Shown: positions 23,225 through 34,920 of the stretch, piece after piece | Position numbering within the stretch: the first letter of the stretch is position 1 | Layout: each line of letters opens with the position of its first letter | DNA from: Chroogloeocystis siderophila 5.2 s.c.1 | Lineage (GTDB): Bacteria; Cyanobacteriota; Cyanobacteriia; Cyanobacteriales; Chroococcidiopsidaceae | NCBI RefSeq assembly: GCF_001904655.1 | Contig: NZ_MRCC01000005.1 | Location: 124,001 to 188,000, forward strand | Direction: 5' to 3' | DNA length: 64,000 bases | Notes under the pieces: generated by a model | Databases searched by the model: none | Seen by the model: only the letters and a program-made list of their open reading frames with translations | What the model was told of the DNA's origin: nothing | Position numbers and translations under genes: made by a program

Positions 23225-25015
23225 ATGAAACTTAGGTTCGACCGTGCTTTAGATGCTTGGGGAAAAAATACCGTAGACCGCCCAATTTTGGCTTGGGTTG
23301 TGTCAATCCTGTGGTTATTAGTCATTGGTTGGCTAGCCTTCTTCTGGAATTTGGGCAGTACTGGTTTGGTGGATGAAACAGAACCACTGTTTGCAGAAGC
23401 GGCGCGGCAAATGACAGTTACAGGGGACTACATCACGCCGTACTTTAACGAGGAAACACGTTTCGATAAGCCGCCTTTGGTTTACTGGCTGATGGCGATC
23501 GCTTACTCAACAATCGGCGTAAATGAATGGGCAGTACGTCTACCTTCGGCGATCAGTGCTTTTGTGTTAATTTGCTTAGGCTTTTATACACTCTTATTTT
23601 TCGGCGTTGGGACTTCTGACTCTTACACTCGTTCCTCTTCGTTAACTCCGCGATCATTCTTCTGTGCTGGGTTGGGTGCAGCGCTCATCGCCTTGAATCC
23701 CGAAACAATTGCTTGGGCAAGAATTGGCGTTTCGGATATGTTGTTGACAGGGTGTATGTGTTGTGCGTTGTTGTGTTTTTTTGTGGGATACGCGCAACCA
23801 TCAAAACCCCAAGTTCAAACGCGGTGGTATCTTGCGTTTTATGTACTTGTAGGATTAGCAATTTTAGCCAAAGGACCTGTTGGCATTGTTTTGCCAGGAA
23901 TCATTATCGGCTTATTTCTCCTGTATGTTGGGAAATTTCGCGAAGTGCTGCGCGAGATGCGGATTGTTTGGGGCAGTTTGTTGATTTTGGCGATCGCAAT
24001 TCCTTGGTATATTCTTGTAATCGGTGCGAATGGTTGGGATTACATCAACGCGTTTTTTGGTTACCACAATATCGAACGCTTTACGGGTGTTGTGAATAAT
24101 CACTCGGCACCTTGGTACTTTTACTTTGTGGTTGTTCTCCTTGGTTTTGCGCCTTGGTCGATTTATTTACCGGTGGCGATCGCCCAAACTCGATTTTGGC
24201 AGCGTGCTTATTGGCGTTCTACTCATCGATCAACGCACCTAGGTTTATTCGCACTGTTTTGGTTTGCCAGTATCTTTGGCTTTTTTACCATCGCCGTGAC
24301 GAAACTTCCGAGCTACGTTCTACCTTTGATGCCTGCGGCAGCTATATTAGTAGCACTTCTTTGGAGCAATCCGCTTCATCCTCGTGTCGGTGATATTCAA
24401 CGAAATTCGCCGTTTCTGCTGTGGAGTCATTGGCTCAATATTGTGTTCTTATTAAGCTTGTCGGCTGGATTGTTTGCGCTTCCTCATCTTGTTGGATCTG
24501 ATCCAGCAATTCCAAACTTACGCGAATCGATTCAACAATCCGGTTTACCAATACTCGCGGCGATGATTTGGCTAGTCGCGGCAATCGCTGGCATAGTCTT
24601 TATTGTCCGGAAGCGCTGGCAAGGTTTATTAGCCGTAAACTTACTCGGATTTGTGGTGTTTCTTGTTTTCGTTGTCACACCCGCTTATTTTTGGATGGAT
24701 CAAGCACGCCAGTTACCACTACGCGAATTATCTACGATTGTCCGTCAAGTCGAACCCACCGAAGAATTAATGATGATCGGGTTCAAAAAGCCGAGTGTTG
24801 TTTTTTACAGCCAACGCCCAGTGACTTATGTTCGAGAAATCGAAAAGGCGATCGCTCATCTTCAAGAACTCCAAGCTCAAACAACAGAACCTTTTTCGGT
24901 GATGCTATTGTCTTATCCATCAAGACTGCAACAACTCCAACCGCAGCTACCACAGTATCAAACCCTTGGGGCAGCTGGTGCGTATCAGCTTGTCCGCATT
25001 AGACAACCTGCATAA
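23225..25015 (+). CDS. Glycosyltransferase family 39 (ArnT/PMT-like) membrane protein
   Basis: 596 residues with about a dozen membrane helices. The first periplasmic loop carries LVDETEPLFAEAARQM and RFDKPPLVYWLMA, the acidic and lysine motifs found in ArnT/PMT-type lipid-linked sugar transferases. Such enzymes move a sugar from a polyprenyl phosphate donor to lipid or protein acceptors on the outer face of the membrane. The acceptor here is unknown. The soluble C-terminal tail (about 510-596) is also usual for the family. Confidence 0.88.
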   Translation: MKLRFDRALDAWGKNTVDRPILAWVVSILWLLVIGWLAFFWNLGSTGLVDETEPLFAEAARQMTVTGDYITPYFNEETRFDKPPLVYWLMAIAYSTIGVNEWAVRLPSAISAFVLICLGFYTLLFFGVGTSDSYTRSSSLTPRSFFCAGLGAALIALNPETIAWARIGVSDMLLTGCMCCALLCFFVGYAQPSKPQVQTRWYLAFYVLVGLAILAKGPVGIVLPGIIIGLFLLYVGKFREVLREMRIVWGSLLILAIAIPWYILVIGANGWDYINAFFGYHNIERFTGVVNNHSAPWYFYFVVVLLGFAPWSIYLPVAIAQTRFWQRAYWRSTHRSTHLGLFALFWFASIFGFFTIAVTKLPSYVLPLMPAAAILVALLWSNPLHPRVGDIQRNSPFLLWSHWLNIVFLLSLSAGLFALPHLVGSDPAIPNLRESIQQSGLPILAAMIWLVAAIAGIVFIVRKRWQGLLAVNLLGFVVFLVFVVTPAYFWMDQARQLPLRELSTIVRQVEPTEELMMIGFKKPSVVFYSQRPVTYVREIEKAIAHLQELQAQTTEPFSVMLLSYPSRLQQLQPQLPQYQTLGAAGAYQLVRIRQPA

Positions 25016-25153: not shown

Positions 25154-28100
25154 TTAGCGCGCGGCGCTGAGTGCTAATGTTTTAACAATCTTGTCTAATA
25201 ATTCTTGGATTGACAGCGGCGGTAGAATTTCTGTGGCGATCGCTTGTAAAACGCGATCAAGCGTTGTTTGCAAATCAAAGCTACGATTTAAGCTTACCTG
25301 ATGTGTATCAAGTTGTGGATGTAATTGTCCATTAAGTACCAAAATAGGTGGTAACTTCTCATTTTCTAGATTTTGCAGCGCTTGCAAAACGTCCGCGTTT
25401 AGCTGTATATCTGCTAGGCAAATCAAAATTAAATCAACACTCGCTTGGCGGATTTGGTTTAACATTTCTGCCCAAGAGTGGCTGATCGCACCATTGAAAC
25501 CTGCTGTTTCTAGATAGGGAATTAACGCTTGAAACCACTCAGTACCGTGCGCGGAGGAATGACTTGCACGACAAAGCGGACTATTCGTCTGCAAATCAGG
25601 TAGCGTCGCCACATCAACAACTAAAATATTAGGCTTCCATGGCATTCCTGCGGCAAATTGCAACACCGATAGCAATGTCTCTAGATCGCGTTGATCGCGG
25701 GGAAGCAAGCAAGGAAAAACCGCTAGCCCTTCGATTTGATTGGCAGCTTGCGTCGTTGCGGCATCTAAGGTAACAATTGGTAGCGCTGCTAGCTTAGAAA
25801 ACTGACTGAGACTTTCTAGATATGTAACAGGTTCAGCAATGTCGCCATCGAGTAAGACAACATCAGGTTGCCAAATACTTACCAAAATTTCCGCTTGTTC
25901 TAAGTCATCAGCTTCTAAAATTCGGTAATGAATTTGTGACGGTTGTGGGACGAGGGGTAGAGCGTCACCATATACTAGCCGGAGAATTGTAATGCGGTCT
26001 TTAGTCATCCCCATCTCAGTTTGGGCTTGAGGATGAGCAACTGGCTCGTGACAAAAACGCGCCAGAACTTGTGGTAAAATTTCTGAGGACACGGGCAAAT
26101 TGATAAAGTCATCGGCTCGATTCGCCAATGCTTGCTCTTTCTCGGCTCTTGTCGCCGTCACAATCACTGGAATTTGGCGCGTTGCCGGGTCAGATTTTAA
26201 TAAAGTCAACACATCCCAACCCGAAAGCAACGGTAGTAAAGGATTTAAAAAGATGATTTCCGGTTGAAGTCGGCGCGCTTTTTCTAAAGCTTCGGTTCCA
26301 GAACGCGCATTGACAACGCGATAACCTAAACTACTAAGTTGTTCGGTTAAAGTGGCAATGTATCGCGGCGCAGCTTCGACAAGTAACACCAAACGGTGAC
26401 TTAATTTTGGCTTTTGCGTCGAGTTTGGAGTATAGTGTAGCGTTTGTGAGTTGTTCGTACTCTGCAATTCCTGATCGGCAATTGTGAGCCGAAAATCTGT
26501 CGGTGGATGCGGTGGTAGTAGCAGCGTAAAAGCACTGCCTTTGCCTTCTTTTGATAAAAAGCTAACATCACCCGCATGTAAGCGTGCTAATGTTCTTGTC
26601 AAGACTAAGCCCAGTCCTGTGCCTTTGAAGCGACGCGTTAAAGGATTTTCGAGTTGTTGGAATTTTTGAAAAATTAAGTGTTGTTGTTGTTCAGGAATGC
26701 CAATTCCTGTATCCCAAACGGTAAAAGCAATCCAACCTGCCCAACGACTAACGCGTAATCCAATTTCTCCGCTTTCTGTAAACTTAAATGCGTTGCCTAG
26801 AAGATGAACGAGCATTTGTCGCAGCCGCAATTCATCGGCAATTATCGTATCTAAGCCTGGTTCAATTTCTAAGGAAAAGCGATGTTCTAATTCATCTTGG
26901 ACGATCGCTTCTGTTGTTGCTTGACGATCTTGCGCTTGCATCACTCGCACTTGCTCTAGCGCGCGATCGCAAATATTTCTAATTTTTACTTGCTCAAAAT
27001 TCAGCTTAATTTGTCCCGTTTCCATCCGCGTCAAATCTAAAATGTCATTGACGACACTCATCAAATGACGACCGCTTTGATGAATCAATTTTGCATAACG
27101 GCTTTGTCGCTCGTTGAGTTCTCCTAAAGCTTGATCCTTTAGTAGCGTCGATAAGCCGAGGACTGCGGTTAACGGTGTTTTCAGTTCGTGGCTAATACAC
27201 GACAAAAATTCATCTTTTAACCGATTAAGTTGAATCAAATCGGCATTTTTTGCGGCTAATTCTAGGGCTAGCTGCTGTTGTTCGGTGATATCTGTCGCGA
27301 GTAATAACCACAATTTAGAACTCACGGGTAACAGATGTGCAAAGTCACTTTTTGCTTCAGACTCGGTATCGTTCGTTTGTCGATCTTCTTGTAAAGGAAT
27401 TTTGATGAATTCCCACACGCGCTCTTGACCGTTGGGTAGCGACCAAATACAAATACAAGTATTAGCCTGTGTACCTAACTGACAGCGATTTGCGGTTGCG
27501 ATAAATTCTGCTGGCTCGAATTCCGAAGTGCGATCGCTGACGCTTACAGCATCATACTCATCAGAAGTTCGGGTTGATAATAACTGCTGAGTCCCAAAGG
27601 TGCTATTTACCAAACTATGGTGCCGATAAGCCGACGTCGCCACCGCCTCGGAATTTTGTGTGTATGCCGCATCTAAAATCGACTCGACTTTGCGCCGCAC
27701 TTCTTCCGGATCGCTGAGTCCACCAAAATGCCGACTCCATGCAGAATTTTGCATCACCACTTCTCCGGTAGTTGTTTGCAAAATCAGCGGACATGGTAAT
27801 TTTTCGAGTAGCTGTACGAGTAAATCTAAGACCAGCTGATTTTGGCGATCGCTTACCTGTTTAACGGCTTCGCTACTAACTTGCGCTAAGTTTAAGCAGA
27901 AAAATTCGGATAGCTGCACGCGATCAATGACACCAAGAAATTTTCCTTCGGTATCAACTATTACCCAGTCACAACGCGTGTTTTGACGTTCGTGTAAAGA
28001 TTGCAAACGCAAGCTGAGTTCTGCAATACTTAAGTTTGCGGGTAAGACTGCGATCGGCTTGATGAGTTCTCTACCGATGGTCTTTACTGCTTGGTGTATC

Positions 28101-28312
28101 GTTTGTTCATATCGACCTGCCTGGAATTGAGGCAATAAATGCAATAAAAGTTGTGCTGCGGATAAGACTCCTACAGGAATCTGTTCATTATTGACCACTA
28201 CCACGCGATCGCACTGCGTCTGTTGCAAAATTTCCAGCACTGCTTTTAGCTGTGTTGTCTGCCTACAGCTAGGTATATTAGTGATGAAATCATATAGCTC
28301 AGGATTTGACAT
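25154..28312 (-). CDS. Hybrid histidine kinase with CBS pair, PAS and degenerate receivers, divergent from kaiABC
   Basis: 1052 residues, with no membrane segment. Order: two CBS-like motifs (about 20-60 and 85-140), a PAS-like region (165-345), HisKA with SCISHELKTP (His375), and a HATPase with N-box Asn507, G1 DTGIGIP (534-540) and G2 GTGLGL (564-569). Three receiver-like domains follow (about 640-755, 772-880 and 890-1025). In the first, the paired acids are Glu646-Ala647, the phosphate-accepting Asp is Asn690 and the Lys is replaced by Leu739, so it cannot work as a normal receiver. The kinase core looks active. Its position beside kaiA suggests a clock input/output role, as for CikA, which also ends in a pseudo-receiver; this is inference. 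Confidence 0.88.
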   Translation of the reverse strand: MSNPELYDFITNIPSCRQTTQLKAVLEILQQTQCDRVVVVNNEQIPVGVLSAAQLLLHLLPQFQAGRYEQTIHQAVKTIGRELIKPIAVLPANLSIAELSLRLQSLHERQNTRCDWVIVDTEGKFLGVIDRVQLSEFFCLNLAQVSSEAVKQVSDRQNQLVLDLLVQLLEKLPCPLILQTTTGEVVMQNSAWSRHFGGLSDPEEVRRKVESILDAAYTQNSEAVATSAYRHHSLVNSTFGTQQLLSTRTSDEYDAVSVSDRTSEFEPAEFIATANRCQLGTQANTCICIWSLPNGQERVWEFIKIPLQEDRQTNDTESEAKSDFAHLLPVSSKLWLLLATDITEQQQLALELAAKNADLIQLNRLKDEFLSCISHELKTPLTAVLGLSTLLKDQALGELNERQSRYAKLIHQSGRHLMSVVNDILDLTRMETGQIKLNFEQVKIRNICDRALEQVRVMQAQDRQATTEAIVQDELEHRFSLEIEPGLDTIIADELRLRQMLVHLLGNAFKFTESGEIGLRVSRWAGWIAFTVWDTGIGIPEQQQHLIFQKFQQLENPLTRRFKGTGLGLVLTRTLARLHAGDVSFLSKEGKGSAFTLLLPPHPPTDFRLTIADQELQSTNNSQTLHYTPNSTQKPKLSHRLVLLVEAAPRYIATLTEQLSSLGYRVVNARSGTEALEKARRLQPEIIFLNPLLPLLSGWDVLTLLKSDPATRQIPVIVTATRAEKEQALANRADDFINLPVSSEILPQVLARFCHEPVAHPQAQTEMGMTKDRITILRLVYGDALPLVPQPSQIHYRILEADDLEQAEILVSIWQPDVVLLDGDIAEPVTYLESLSQFSKLAALPIVTLDAATTQAANQIEGLAVFPCLLPRDQRDLETLLSVLQFAAGMPWKPNILVVDVATLPDLQTNSPLCRASHSSAHGTEWFQALIPYLETAGFNGAISHSWAEMLNQIRQASVDLILICLADIQLNADVLQALQNLENEKLPPILVLNGQLHPQLDTHQVSLNRSFDLQTTLDRVLQAIATEILPPLSIQELLDKIVKTLALSAAR

Positions 28313-28836
28313 TGATTCGATGCAGTGGGGTATTCTGGTTAGCTTGACGATACAGTAAACCGCTTTAAGATGATCTTTGTTGAGGATGCTTCCTTTGTCA
28401 GCTTTCCTATGCTTTTTACAGATTCGTACCGCAATGCAATTACCATTATTATGACTGCCAAGATCGAGAATCTGAGCCTTGGGGAATTATAATGAATTAC
28501 AATGCGATAATGGTTTAACTTAGTTCAAATTTCTTAATTTATCTAACAGACACACCTCAATTTATACAAGTACTGCCGCACTCAAAAAAAGTGACTTTTT
28601 GCGAAGTGGGTTTGTCAACAGATGCGATCGCACGACGGCTGACCTTACTCAGTTGAGAGTGCCCTTTATTTTAAGAACGCGAAGGCTTACCTTGAGATAG
28701 TAACGCTTGCTATTTTTATCCAGCTTATATTTAAGCAATTTTTTATCTGAGCATTACATAAATTATTTAAATTAAGTCATACTACTTTGTCACGATTGAA
28801 CCACTTGCAGAGCAATAGAATGTCTGTTTTGGAGTT
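28313..28836. other. Divergent promoter region of kaiABC and the hybrid kinase
   Basis: 524 AT-rich bases between divergently transcribed genes. No N-terminal KaiA pseudo-receiver sequence is present here in any frame, which confirms that KaiA is short rather than frameshifted. One HIP1-like octamer lies near 28623. Promoter elements cannot be fixed by eye. Confidence 0.5.
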
Positions 28837-29175
28837 ATGGATGACCGCGATAACGAAGAAGCGCCAGTTTTTCAACAAATGTCTTTAGAACAAAATCTGT
28901 TCGAACAACTCAAGTTAGACTATCGCCAAATTATCATAAATTACTTTGTCAATAATGAAGCATCTAGGGAGAGAATTGATAAATTTATTAATAAAGTGTT
29001 TGATTATAACCTTCCTATACCGAAAATTATAGAAATCCATATGGATTTGATTGATGAATTATCTAAGCAGTTAAAAGTCGAAGGGCGGAGTGATGATATA
29101 TTACTCGACTATCGTTTGACACTCATCGATATTTTGGCGCATTTATGCGAAATGTATCGTTGTTCGCATCGCTAG
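28837..29175 (+). CDS. kaiA: Circadian clock protein KaiA, short form
   Basis: 112 residues, against about 284 in Synechococcus elongatus. Only the C-terminal helical domain is present (YRQIIINYFVNNEASRERIDKFINKVF and IEIHMDLIDELSKQLK), which dimerises and binds the KaiC tail to stimulate KaiC autophosphorylation. The N-terminal pseudo-receiver is absent, as in Nostoc-type cyanobacteria. GGAG lies two bases before the ATG, with TTTTGGAG further left. First gene of kaiABC; 55 bases to kaiB. Confidence 0.95.
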   Translation: MDDRDNEEAPVFQQMSLEQNLFEQLKLDYRQIIINYFVNNEASRERIDKFINKVFDYNLPIPKIIEIHMDLIDELSKQLKVEGRSDDILLDYRLTLIDILAHLCEMYRCSHR

Positions 29176-29230: not shown

Positions 29231-29548
29231 ATGAACGTACTCAAAAAGACTTATGTGCTGAAGCTCTATGTAACTGGAAATACATATCGATCGGTACAAG
29301 CAATTAAAACTCTCAAAAAAATTTTGGAAGAAGAGTTTCAAGGTATTTATGCGCTCAAAGTCATTGATGTACTGAAAAATCCGCAGTTAGCCGAAGAGGA
29401 TAAAATTCTCGCAACGCCAACTTTAGCTAAAATACTACCACTACCGGTGCGTAAAATTATCGGTGACTTATCTGATAGGGAAAAAGTACTCATTGGGTTA
29501 GACTTACTATACGAAGAGTTAAGAGAAGGTGAGGACGCTAGCGAGTAA
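29231..29548 (+). CDS. kaiB: Circadian clock protein KaiB
   Basis: 105 residues, a thioredoxin-like fold-switching protein. The sequence [18 protein letters not shown] followed by [19 protein letters not shown] and [20 protein letters not shown] is nearly invariant in KaiB. In the cycle it binds phosphorylated KaiC and sequesters KaiA. It sits between kaiA and kaiC; 69 bases to kaiC. Confidence 0.98.
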
Positions 29549-29617: not shown

Positions 29618-31177
29618 ATGGATGATATTAGTAATCAAGTTATTTCAAAAAATACCAAATTACCAGAGGGCGTGCAAAAAATCCGCACAATGATCGAAGG
29701 ATTTGATGACATTAGTCACGGCGGACTTCCCTTGGCAAGAACAACGTTAGTAAGTGGTACGTCTGGCACGGGTAAAACTTTATTATCAATGCACTTTCTT
29801 TATAATGGTATCGTTTATTTTGATGAACCTGGAATTTTTGTAACTTTTGAAGAAGATCCCATTGATATTATCAAAAATGCCGGTAGTTTTGGTTGGGATT
29901 TACAACAGTTAATCAATGAAGGAAAACTGTTTATTTTAGATGCAACACCCGATCCTGAAGGGCAAGAGGTTGTTGGTAATTTCGATCTTTCGGCTTTAAT
30001 TGAGCGCCTGCAATATGCAATTAATAAATACCGAGCTAAAAGAGTTTCTATTGATTCAATTACCGCACTCTTTCAGCAATACGAAGCGGCTTCGGTAGTG
30101 CGCCGCGAAATTTTTCGACTAATTGCGCGCATGAAGCAAATTGGCATTACAAACATTATTACAGCCGAGCGAACCGAAGAATATGGTGCGATCGCTCGCT
30201 TTGGCGTCGAAGAATTTGTTTCAGATAATGTGGTAGTTGTCCGCAATGTTTTAGAAGGCGAACGGCGACGACGCACAATCGAAATTTTAAAAATGCGCGG
30301 TTCATCGCACATGAAAGGCGAATATCCTTTTACGATCGCCACAGGCGGAATTAGTATTTTCCCACTAGGAGCAATGCGCTTAACGCAACGCTCGTCTAAT
30401 ATTCGCGTTTCTTCAGGTGTCAAGACACTCGATGAAATGTGTGGCGGTGGCTTCTTCAAAGATTCAATTATTCTCGCAACTGGCGCAACGGGAACTGGAA
30501 AAACTCTATTAGTCAGTAAGTTTTTGCAAAATGCGTGTCTTAGCGGTGATCGCGCGATCTTGTTTGCTTATGAAGAATCGCGCGCGCAGCTATCGCGAAA
30601 TGCTTACTCGTGGGGAATTGATTTTGAAGATTTAGAACGTCAAGGATTACTCAAAATTATTTGTGCTTATCCTGAATCCGCAGGTTTAGAAGATCACTTA
30701 CAAAGTATTAAATCCGAAATTGCGCAATTCAAACCCTCGCGGATTGCGATCGATTCGCTTTCCGCCTTAGCGCGTGGAGTTAGTAATAACGCGTTTCGTC
30801 AGTTCGTAATCGGTGTCACTGGATATGCAAAGCAAGAAGAAATTACCGGATTCTTTACGAACACCACCGATCAATTTATGGGTTCGCATTCGATTACTGA
30901 CTCGCATATTTCGACGATTACAGACACTATTATTATGCTGCAATACGTAGAAATTCGTGGTGAAATGTCACGGGCAATCAACGTGTTTAAAATGCGCGGT
31001 TCTTGGCACGATAAAGGAATTCGTGAGTATATTATTAGCGCTGATGGACCTGAAATTAGTGATTCCTTCCGCCATTACGAAGGTATTATCAGTGGTTCTC
31101 CAACGCGTGTTAGCACCGATGAAAAAGCTGAATTATCGCGCATTGTTAAAGGTTTTCAAGATAGCGCCGGTTCGTGA
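29618..31177 (+). CDS. kaiC: Circadian clock protein kinase KaiC
   Basis: 519 residues, full length. Two RecA-like halves: CI with Walker A GTSGTGKT (47-54) and catalytic Glu78-Glu79; CII with GATGTGKT (289-296) and Glu319-Glu320. The phosphorylation sites align to Ser432-Thr433 in SHISTITD, with a nearby threonine at 427. The C-terminal tail beyond about residue 490, the KaiA-binding segment, is present. KaiC hexamers run the roughly 24-hour phosphorylation cycle with KaiA and KaiB. All key residues are intact. Confidence 0.98.
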   Translation: MDDISNQVISKNTKLPEGVQKIRTMIEGFDDISHGGLPLARTTLVSGTSGTGKTLLSMHFLYNGIVYFDEPGIFVTFEEDPIDIIKNAGSFGWDLQQLINEGKLFILDATPDPEGQEVVGNFDLSALIERLQYAINKYRAKRVSIDSITALFQQYEAASVVRREIFRLIARMKQIGITNIITAERTEEYGAIARFGVEEFVSDNVVVVRNVLEGERRRRTIEILKMRGSSHMKGEYPFTIATGGISIFPLGAMRLTQRSSNIRVSSGVKTLDEMCGGGFFKDSIILATGATGTGKTLLVSKFLQNACLSGDRAILFAYEESRAQLSRNAYSWGIDFEDLERQGLLKIICAYPESAGLEDHLQSIKSEIAQFKPSRIAIDSLSALARGVSNNAFRQFVIGVTGYAKQEEITGFFTNTTDQFMGSHSITDSHISTITDTIIMLQYVEIRGEMSRAINVFKMRGSWHDKGIREYIISADGPEISDSFRHYEGIISGSPTRVSTDEKAELSRIVKGFQDSAGS

Positions 31178-34847: not shown

Positions 34848-34920
34848 CGAGCATGGAGGGATTCGAACCCCCGACCCTCAGAACCGGAATCTGATGCTCT
34901 ATCCACTGAGCTACATGCCC
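34848..34920 (-). tRNA. tRNA-Arg (anticodon CCG)
   Basis: 73 bases. The acceptor stem GGGCATG pairs with CATGCTC. The D arm has AGCTCAGTGGATAGAGC. The anticodon stem TCAGA/TCTGA encloses TTCCGGT, giving anticodon CCG for codon CGG. The T loop is GGGGGTTCGAATCCC. CCA is not encoded. The genes next to it on the 5' side (higher coordinates) are decayed. Confidence 0.95.

Follow-up and report, generated by a model that had tools for sequence, protein, structure and literature searches.

A kai-linked histidine kinase with pseudo-receivers as a candidate clock-associated sensor in cyanobacteria

Introduction

The closest described systems for the gene analysed here, a sensor histidine kinase gene lying divergently beside kaiABC in a window of 64,000 nucleotides (contig 5, 124001-188000) of the 5.0-Mb genome of the cyanobacterium Chroogloeocystis siderophila 5.2 s.c.1, are the clock-coupled kinases CikA and SasA. 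Loss of the CikA pseudo-receiver is reported to raise autokinase activity (PMC6378743), and the same domain is described as binding quinone and taking part in KaiB-KaiC binding (PMC13421787). SasA acts on RpaA (PMC5520375; PMC13421787) and is described with a KaiB-like N-terminal domain (PMC6378743). In Rhodobacter sphaeroides, a histidine kinase is encoded in the kaiBC operon, and a redox input has been suggested for it (PMC5520375).

Single-domain KaiA is described as confined to Chroococcidiopsidales and Nostocales, and the input route of clocks with this KaiA is presented as an open question (PMC8113500). A 2025 study sought alternative CikA-like kinases in Nostoc punctiforme by GAF and kinase similarity (PMC12691664). 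A GAF-based search should pass over the kinase described here, because the protein has no GAF match. We found no description of this kai-adjacent kinase in open-licence PMC papers, and we do not claim that it is absent from print. We argue below that the protein is probably, at a probability of about 0.6, a clock-associated sensor histidine kinase, CikA-like in its logic and acting in trans, with its pseudo-receivers serving as docking or inhibitory modules.

Results and Discussion

A kinase with three pseudo-receivers beside kaiABC

The kinase gene lies on the minus strand and kaiA, kaiB and kaiC on the plus strand, and the coordinates thus agree with the divergent order given in the initial annotation. 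That annotation also described a KaiA without a pseudo-receiver of its own, and indeed only the C-terminal KaiA domain was matched in the short frame. The features are as follows.

25154..28312, minus strand: kai-linked sensor kinase, 1052 amino acids, with CBS pair, PAS-like region, HisKA, HATPase and three pseudo-receivers (open reading frame, Pfam, AlphaFold model)
27878..28285, minus strand: CBS pair, residues 10-145 (Pfam CBS, model, motif columns); Gln54 and Gln133 replace the usual nucleotide-binding Asp
27278..27850, minus strand: PAS-like sensor region, residues 155-345, tentatively assigned, with a low-confidence insert at about 219-273
27014..27217, minus strand: HisKA, residues 366-433 (Pfam); His375 codon at 27188-27190
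26510..26836, minus strand: HATPase_c, residues 493-601 (Pfam); ATP-binding boxes intact
26057..26395, minus strand: pseudo-receiver 1, residues 640-752, with Glu646-Ala647, Asn690 (26243-26245) and Leu739 (Pfam Response_reg 642-748, receiver fold)
25643..25996, minus strand: pseudo-receiver 2, residues 773-890; Asp822 (25847-25849) retained, with no acid pair and no Lys; VFPCL motif
25223..25630, minus strand: pseudo-receiver 3, residues 895-1030 (fold match), with no copy detected in several lineages
28313..28836, no strand: divergent intergenic region from the kinase gene to kaiA, 524 base pairs (bp)
28837..29175, plus strand: kaiA, single-domain form, 112 amino acids; Pfam KaiA C-terminal domain over residues 14-110
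29231..29548, plus strand: kaiB, 105 amino acids (Pfam, NCBIfam)
29618..31177, plus strand: kaiC, 519 amino acids (Pfam, NCBIfam)

The domain order is therefore CBS pair, PAS-like region, HisKA/HATPase and three receiver folds. Above the Pfam cut-off, the kinase gave only CBS (10-59), HisKA (366-433), HATPase_c (493-601) and Response_reg (642-748). The CBS match splits into two stretches when residues 1-150 are scanned alone (7.8e-10). Pfam found neither a PAS nor a GAF match in the protein, and region 155-345 was assigned from secondary structure in the full-length model. This AlphaFold model, built on an alignment of 57 sequences, has a mean predicted local distance difference test score (pLDDT) of 69.3 and a predicted template modelling score of 0.41, at which its single domains are fair and the arrangement of the domains is not trustworthy. 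In it the CBS-like pair extends to about residue 145, followed by a PAS-like part at 155-345, the kinase at 346-600 and three receiver-like parts.

Two sets of relatives were compared. The alignment of close relatives has 109 rows, some of which are the same genome from two overlapping collections (e.g. L021 and L086; L numbers denote loci and G numbers genomes). Dropped from it were L001-L005 (no 500-bit kinase match), L006 (the same sequence as the query) and L112 (with a broken frame). The wider set has 82 rows, 57 from one alignment (A1) and 25 from more divergent proteins. One of its rows, L177 (3457-6290, minus strand), comes from a gene whose frame is broken in two, a CBS-kinase part that overlaps with a part for receivers 1-3; in this row receiver 1 is misaligned.

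The initial annotation had proposed that in the first receiver the acceptor Asp is replaced by Asn690, the acid pair by Glu646-Ala647, and that the Lys is lost (here Leu739). All of this was confirmed: Asn690 and Glu646 are found in 109 of the 109 rows, which is beyond chance. At position 647, 100 rows have Ala, 8 have Thr and a single one has Val; at 739 there are 106 Leu, 2 Val and 1 Ile, and 108 rows keep Thr719. In the wider set, 73 rows have Asn at position 690 and 3 have Asp, a Lys stands at 739 in 2 rows, and a canonical acid pair, Asp and Lys never occur together (0 of 82). The domain nevertheless has a receiver fold, matching RpaA with Z 19.1 and a root-mean-square deviation (rmsd) of 1.8 over 120 aligned residues, and this combination, a receiver fold without the acceptor Asp, is that of the CikA type. 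Beta2 with its loop, alpha2, alpha3 and the beta3-alpha3 loop before it have mean column entropies of 0.14-0.57 bits; elsewhere the value is 0.36 in beta1, 0.74 in beta3, 1.08 in alpha1, 1.06 in alpha4 and 1.76 bits in alpha5, and the dimerisation and histidine phosphotransfer (DHp) part of the kinase has 0.32. The constant face of receiver 1 is thus formed by beta2-alpha2-beta3-loop-alpha3, not by alpha4-beta5-alpha5. We considered and rejected the notion that the domain is decaying, as alpha2 and the stretch from the beta3-alpha3 loop through alpha3 vary no more than DHp does. Judged by its conserved columns, receiver 1 is a maintained pseudo-receiver, and it does not look phosphorylatable in the usual way.

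The two following domains had been described as poor receiver matches. By sequence they are, since residues 768-1052 reach 17.7 bits with Response_reg against a Pfam cut-off of 30.2, yet both are receiver folds in an AlphaFold model of this part (mean pLDDT 80.5). Receiver 2 matched the CheB receiver (Z 11.5, rmsd 2.7, 113 aligned) and receiver 3 matched KdpE (Z 12.8, rmsd 2.9, 117 aligned). The CikA and KaiA pseudo-receivers are not among the fold-search matches listed, and absence from those lists is uninformative. In receiver 2 the acceptor position holds an Asp (Asp822) in 65 of 82 relatives, neither an acid pair nor the Lys being conserved there. Across the same rows these are not conserved in receiver 3 either, and it has no acceptor Asp at the end of the third strand. 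The full set of residues of a phosphorylatable receiver (acid pair, Asp, Thr or Ser, Lys) was found in none of the three.

The kinase core presents the opposite picture, with His375 and the N, G1 and G2 boxes all present, as in an active HisKA kinase. Its retention had been claimed at the outset and was borne out by inspection of the boxes and by the alignment, where His375 is kept in 109 of 109 rows. The suggestion that the CBS pair adds adenine-nucleotide sensing came out weakened. Nucleotide-binding CBS pairs carry the motif G-x-x-S/T-x-x-D in one repeat or both, and binding through other residues is possible. In the window kinase the Asp positions are Gln54 and Gln133, so neither repeat has the motif, and across the 109 rows the same two columns are Arg in 67 and 74 and Gln in 12 and 12. 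With another residue at the Asp position of both repeats, here as in most family members, nucleotide sensing by this pair is a weak proposal. Recognition of the CBS region itself varies: among 10 proteins scanned, the window kinase included, 3 pass the Pfam cut-off, 3 fall below it and 4 have no match.

Linkage to kaiABC across cyanobacteria

We searched 386 cyanobacterial genomes, spread evenly over the phylum and at least 90% complete. The protein matched in 86 of them at an E of 1e-90 or better, and Pfam KaiA in 162. A profile of receiver 2 found the family in 104 genomes at an E of 1e-10 or better, with one match per genome in all 104. In 96 of these 104 family-bearing genomes the kinase gene is divergent beside kaiA. 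Conserved linkage had been set beforehand as the test of the association with kai, and the outcome that would have spoken against it, a linkage that is not conserved, did not occur. The count is made up as follows. In 77 of the 86 genomes the two genes are divergent on the same contig within 6 kilobases (kb), 43 with a kaiA frame of less than 250 amino acids and 34 with one of at least 276; a linkage limited to short KaiA was accordingly rejected. Thirteen more genomes are linked by coordinates (G022, G024, G027, G036, G051, G055, G129, G204, G212, G277, G310, G316, G415), eight of which were also seen in fetched loci, and so is G181 (a decayed copy with stops). Inspection of fetched loci brought in G127, G131, G328, G355 and G137 (split over two contigs). 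G239 was left unjudged, as its kinase and kaiA both face contig ends.

The gap between the match ends of kinase and kaiA ranges from 525 to 3324 bp over the 77 pairs. Of 80 loci from named genomes, 78 show kaiA; in the other two (L042 and L096) the contig stops within 0.9 kb of the kinase match. At an E of 1e-80, 20 of the 60 nearest genomes have no kinase match; in the window's own family this holds for 4 of 19 (G005, G011, G017, G018), all of them 65-84% complete.

Other neighbours served as a control, with flanks of a few kb. Of 13 loci from across the phylum that show kaiA, kaiC and sufficient flank, and that were partly picked for having the kinase, 12 have the kinase and 2 the ArnT-like gene that lies next beyond it in the window (23225-25015). 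In 16 loci picked by kaiA alone the counts were 7 and 2. The ABC-F gene beyond kaiC was found in none of the 13, the 16 or 66 Nostocales-type loci, the last wholly picked for having the kinase.

Relation to CikA and other known systems

A FastTree tree of kinase cores was built from 19 kai-linked kinases, 29 CikA proteins and 28 of the 58 HisKA kinases of the window genome. The kai-linked cores form their own clade (support 0.993), with CikA in a separate one (0.764), and their nearest neighbour is a kinase of the window genome, L253 (0.982), not CikA. A receiver tree, for which 30 of the window genome's 94 receiver loci supplied 47 receiver stretches, likewise puts receiver 1 (0.979) and the CikA pseudo-receiver (1.0) in clades of their own, and by tree distance receiver 1 is closer to seven ordinary receivers of the window genome than to the nearest CikA pseudo-receiver. 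In a profile comparison receiver 1 scored 98.7 against the CikA pseudo-receiver and 40.8 against receiver 2. Taken alone, without ordinary receivers, this closeness had pointed to a CikA paralogue, a candidate that the trees reject. The KaiA pseudo-receiver profile matches none of receivers 1-3 well; since it fails with the CikA pseudo-receiver too, the comparison carries no information.

The kinase may thus work like CikA; on the evidence of the trees it is not CikA. In both proteins, a receiver fold that lacks the usual phosphorylation chemistry comes after HisKA-HATPase. Unlike CikA, the kai-linked kinase has a CBS pair and a PAS-like region in place of GAF, so that the domain orders differ, has two or three pseudo-receivers, and adjoins kaiA. 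The two coexist in the same genomes, that of the window included. SasA is likewise a clock-coupled histidine kinase, but Pfam finds no KaiB-like N-terminal domain in the protein studied here. NCBIfam PRK09303, which we take to be the SasA family, reached 117 of 342 bits over residues 341-600. The best NCBIfam match of the whole protein is HrmK (NF038297), with 305 bits over residues 222-753; the cut-off being 725 bits, the kinase is not a member. The Rhodobacter sphaeroides kinase belongs to another phylum and is likened here by gene position alone. In structure the kinase part is matched by the Caulobacter protein DivL, and PleD, also from Caulobacter, matches by sequence and fold. DivL is a kinase-like protein working by docking, and PleD has tandem receiver folds of which the second is degenerate; both belong to unrelated pathways.

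KaiA form, CikA loss and the age of the family

All 45 sampled genomes of the clade with short KaiA (3 of family f1 and 42 of f33; frames measured in 43, those of G127 and G131 lying outside the measured set) hold the kinase beside kaiA, compared to 58 of 117 other kaiA-bearing genomes (Fisher 1.5e-11, kinship not corrected). The receiver 2 profile found no family member in G090, which we infer from its CikA to be S. elongatus-like. The kinase is therefore a direct candidate for the input of short-KaiA clocks.

CikA was sought in 42 genomes with the G090 protein as query, and the best match was scored in 30. The 12 unscored genomes comprise G183 (no match at 1e-60), three with good matches ending at query positions 610, 678 and 677 of 751 (G099, G185 and G046, respectively), and eight with weaker matches only (G007, G012, G142, G030, G038, G045, G226, G375). 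The CikA pseudo-receiver is absent in 11 of 11 scored short-KaiA genomes, and in 2 of 19 genomes with long KaiA (G032 and G218; Fisher 1.4e-6, kinship not corrected). In G032 a separate small frame with a receiver-like domain flanks CikA. In the window genome CikA ends directly after the ATPase domain, and no pseudo-receiver was found within its fetched flanks. As the genomes are related, the association with KaiA form may reflect one evolutionary event and hence count as one observation.

The idea that the kinase is tied to short-KaiA clocks therefore stands in part: it is kept there in all sampled genomes, with the CikA pseudo-receiver gone in all 11 that were scored, and it is also found elsewhere. 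Lineages with other, mostly two-domain, kaiA account for 58 of the 104 family-bearing genomes, and the family, mostly with the same Asn690, adjoins a two-domain kaiA in many families (34 of the 77 scored pairs). The kinase is thus older than the loss of the KaiA pseudo-receiver, and the proposal that it arose to replace that domain was not borne out. Keeping its kai-side place across much of the cyanobacterial tree, it is a candidate for how many cyanobacteria set their clocks.

Variant and degenerate family members

In lineage f40, which is perhaps Thermosynechococcus-like, two proteins (L145, 2950-5082, minus strand; L146, 6081-8423, plus strand) have lost the N and G2 ATP boxes and kept the His, and are probably pseudokinases. 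They still have the CBS region, the PAS-like part, kinase, receivers 1 and 2 and the kai position; the domain profiles that detect them included these proteins themselves, and a separate search had found both independently. The KaiA frames of this lineage are 285-289 amino acids long (G129 and G310), and another of its genomes, G326, has kaiABC without the kinase. Because the f40 proteins keep pseudo-receivers and kai position with degenerate ATP boxes, the scaffold outlives the kinase activity, which suggests that the docking part, rather than autophosphorylation, would be the function common to the whole family.

Other members vary in their receivers: receiver 3 was not found in several lineages by profile search, and at kai in G036 (L159, 1354-3606, minus strand) there is a member in which receiver 1 was not found. 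In the 2.8-Mb genome G181 (L318, G181:C1:531000-543000), where the kinase is decayed, the kaiB match is in two pieces, as if frame-shifted. Two genomes of the same genus, G216 and G298, have a kinase match interrupted by stops. The kinase may be degenerating along with the clock. In the genus of G285, the genomes G191 and G292 have kaiA located elsewhere.

A clock-associated kinase and its alternatives

As far as sequence can tell, the kinase belongs to a distinct cyanobacterial family, with an intact His375 and ATP site, a degenerate CBS pair, a receiver 1 without normal chemistry and a conserved place beside kaiA. It would operate in the manner of CikA rather than as a phosphorelay hybrid kinase. 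The N-terminal region would read a metabolic signal, and the kinase would give phosphate to, or take it from, a separate response regulator, for which RpaA or RpaB are obvious candidates. The pseudo-receivers would act as docking or inhibitory modules; in particular, the constant face of receiver 1 may bind a Kai protein (KaiB or KaiC) or the kinase's own core, and such binding would couple the state of the clock to kinase activity. The conserved kai linkage, the loss of other neighbours phylum-wide, the constraint on receiver 1, the separate kinase-core clade, the single match per genome, the scaffolds of lineage f40 and the retention in all 45 genomes with short KaiA all point to this reading.

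Several observations weigh against it. In 7 of the 104 genomes the kinase is away from kai (G042, G144, G158, G191, G235, G285, G292), and one of them, G285 (L180, G285:C1:1389000-1400000), holds the kinase without a KaiA match in the search of the 386 genomes. In G355 (L306, G355:C106:26000-38000) an open kinase frame of 932 amino acids persists next to the remains of a kai cluster, where kaiA and kaiC are matched by their ends alone and no kaiB was found. These two genomes argue against a strict dependence on Kai. The kinase is not a universal clock part either: outside the clade with single-domain KaiA, 59 of 117 kaiA genomes gave no match to it. In Nostocales-type loci the ArnT-like neighbour is often kept too (54 of 66), and a shared promoter region can keep genes together. 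Asp822 of receiver 2 could take part in a phosphorelay; normal phosphorylation through another aspartate was the second outcome that the initial annotation had named as refuting its own reading.

The gene order would also follow if the kinase regulated transcription of kai (and its own) through a response regulator, never touching the Kai proteins, from a shared divergent promoter region. The head-to-head arrangement is consistent with this, both in the window, with its 524-bp gap, and in the range of gaps over the 77 pairs, and so is a CRP site predicted for all2883 of Anabaena PCC 7120, a gene listed in a table of such predictions, apparently under the kinases (PMC2633013). The kaiA tag of this strain is alr2884 (PMC8064755), and by tag order and strand all2883 would be its kai-linked kinase gene. 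Purely transcriptional control leaves unexplained the constant face of receiver 1 and the pseudo-receivers kept on degenerate kinases, and we regard it as possible but rather doubtful. Rather unlikely, in our view, is a role specific to the clade with single-domain KaiA, along the lines of the initial annotation, in which the kinase would stand in for the lost pseudo-receivers, binding oxidised quinone or fold-switched KaiB in the way that those of CikA and KaiA do. Its retention throughout that clade, the parallel loss of the CikA pseudo-receiver and the profile closeness of receiver 1 to that domain all speak for such a role, as does the account that short-KaiA clocks must lack quinone binding or do it differently (PMC8113500). 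The family, however, is also found next to kaiA of the two-domain form and in genomes with a complete CikA pseudo-receiver, receiver 1 and that domain are in different clades, with ordinary receivers lying nearer to receiver 1, and the double loss is possibly a single event on the tree. An ordinary hybrid kinase with a phosphorelay through Asp822, its kai linkage being incidental, would fit the intact kinase core and the frequent retention of this residue; since receiver 2 has no conserved acid pair or Lys and the linkage spans many families while other neighbours are lost, we consider this very unlikely.

The reading of a CikA-like, docking sensor kinase can be extended to a more specific and, as it stands, unlikely picture. 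In the heterocyst-forming and related clade, where the pseudo-receivers of KaiA and CikA are both lost, the kinase would be the remaining pseudo-receiver protein of the clock. It would dock on the KaiB-KaiC night complex via receiver 1, sense metabolic or redox state through its CBS/PAS front and set both clock phase and RpaA output, while in some small-genome lineages it would persist as a kinase-dead clock scaffold.

Other features of the window

On the kaiC side of the cluster there is a tRNA-Arg gene (anticodon ccg; window 34848-34920, minus strand). A second hybrid kinase, with a frame of 1132 amino acids on the minus strand, exits the right end of the window from about 63677 onward; its receiver lies at 187677-188015 and its HisKA at 188664-188858 of contig 5.

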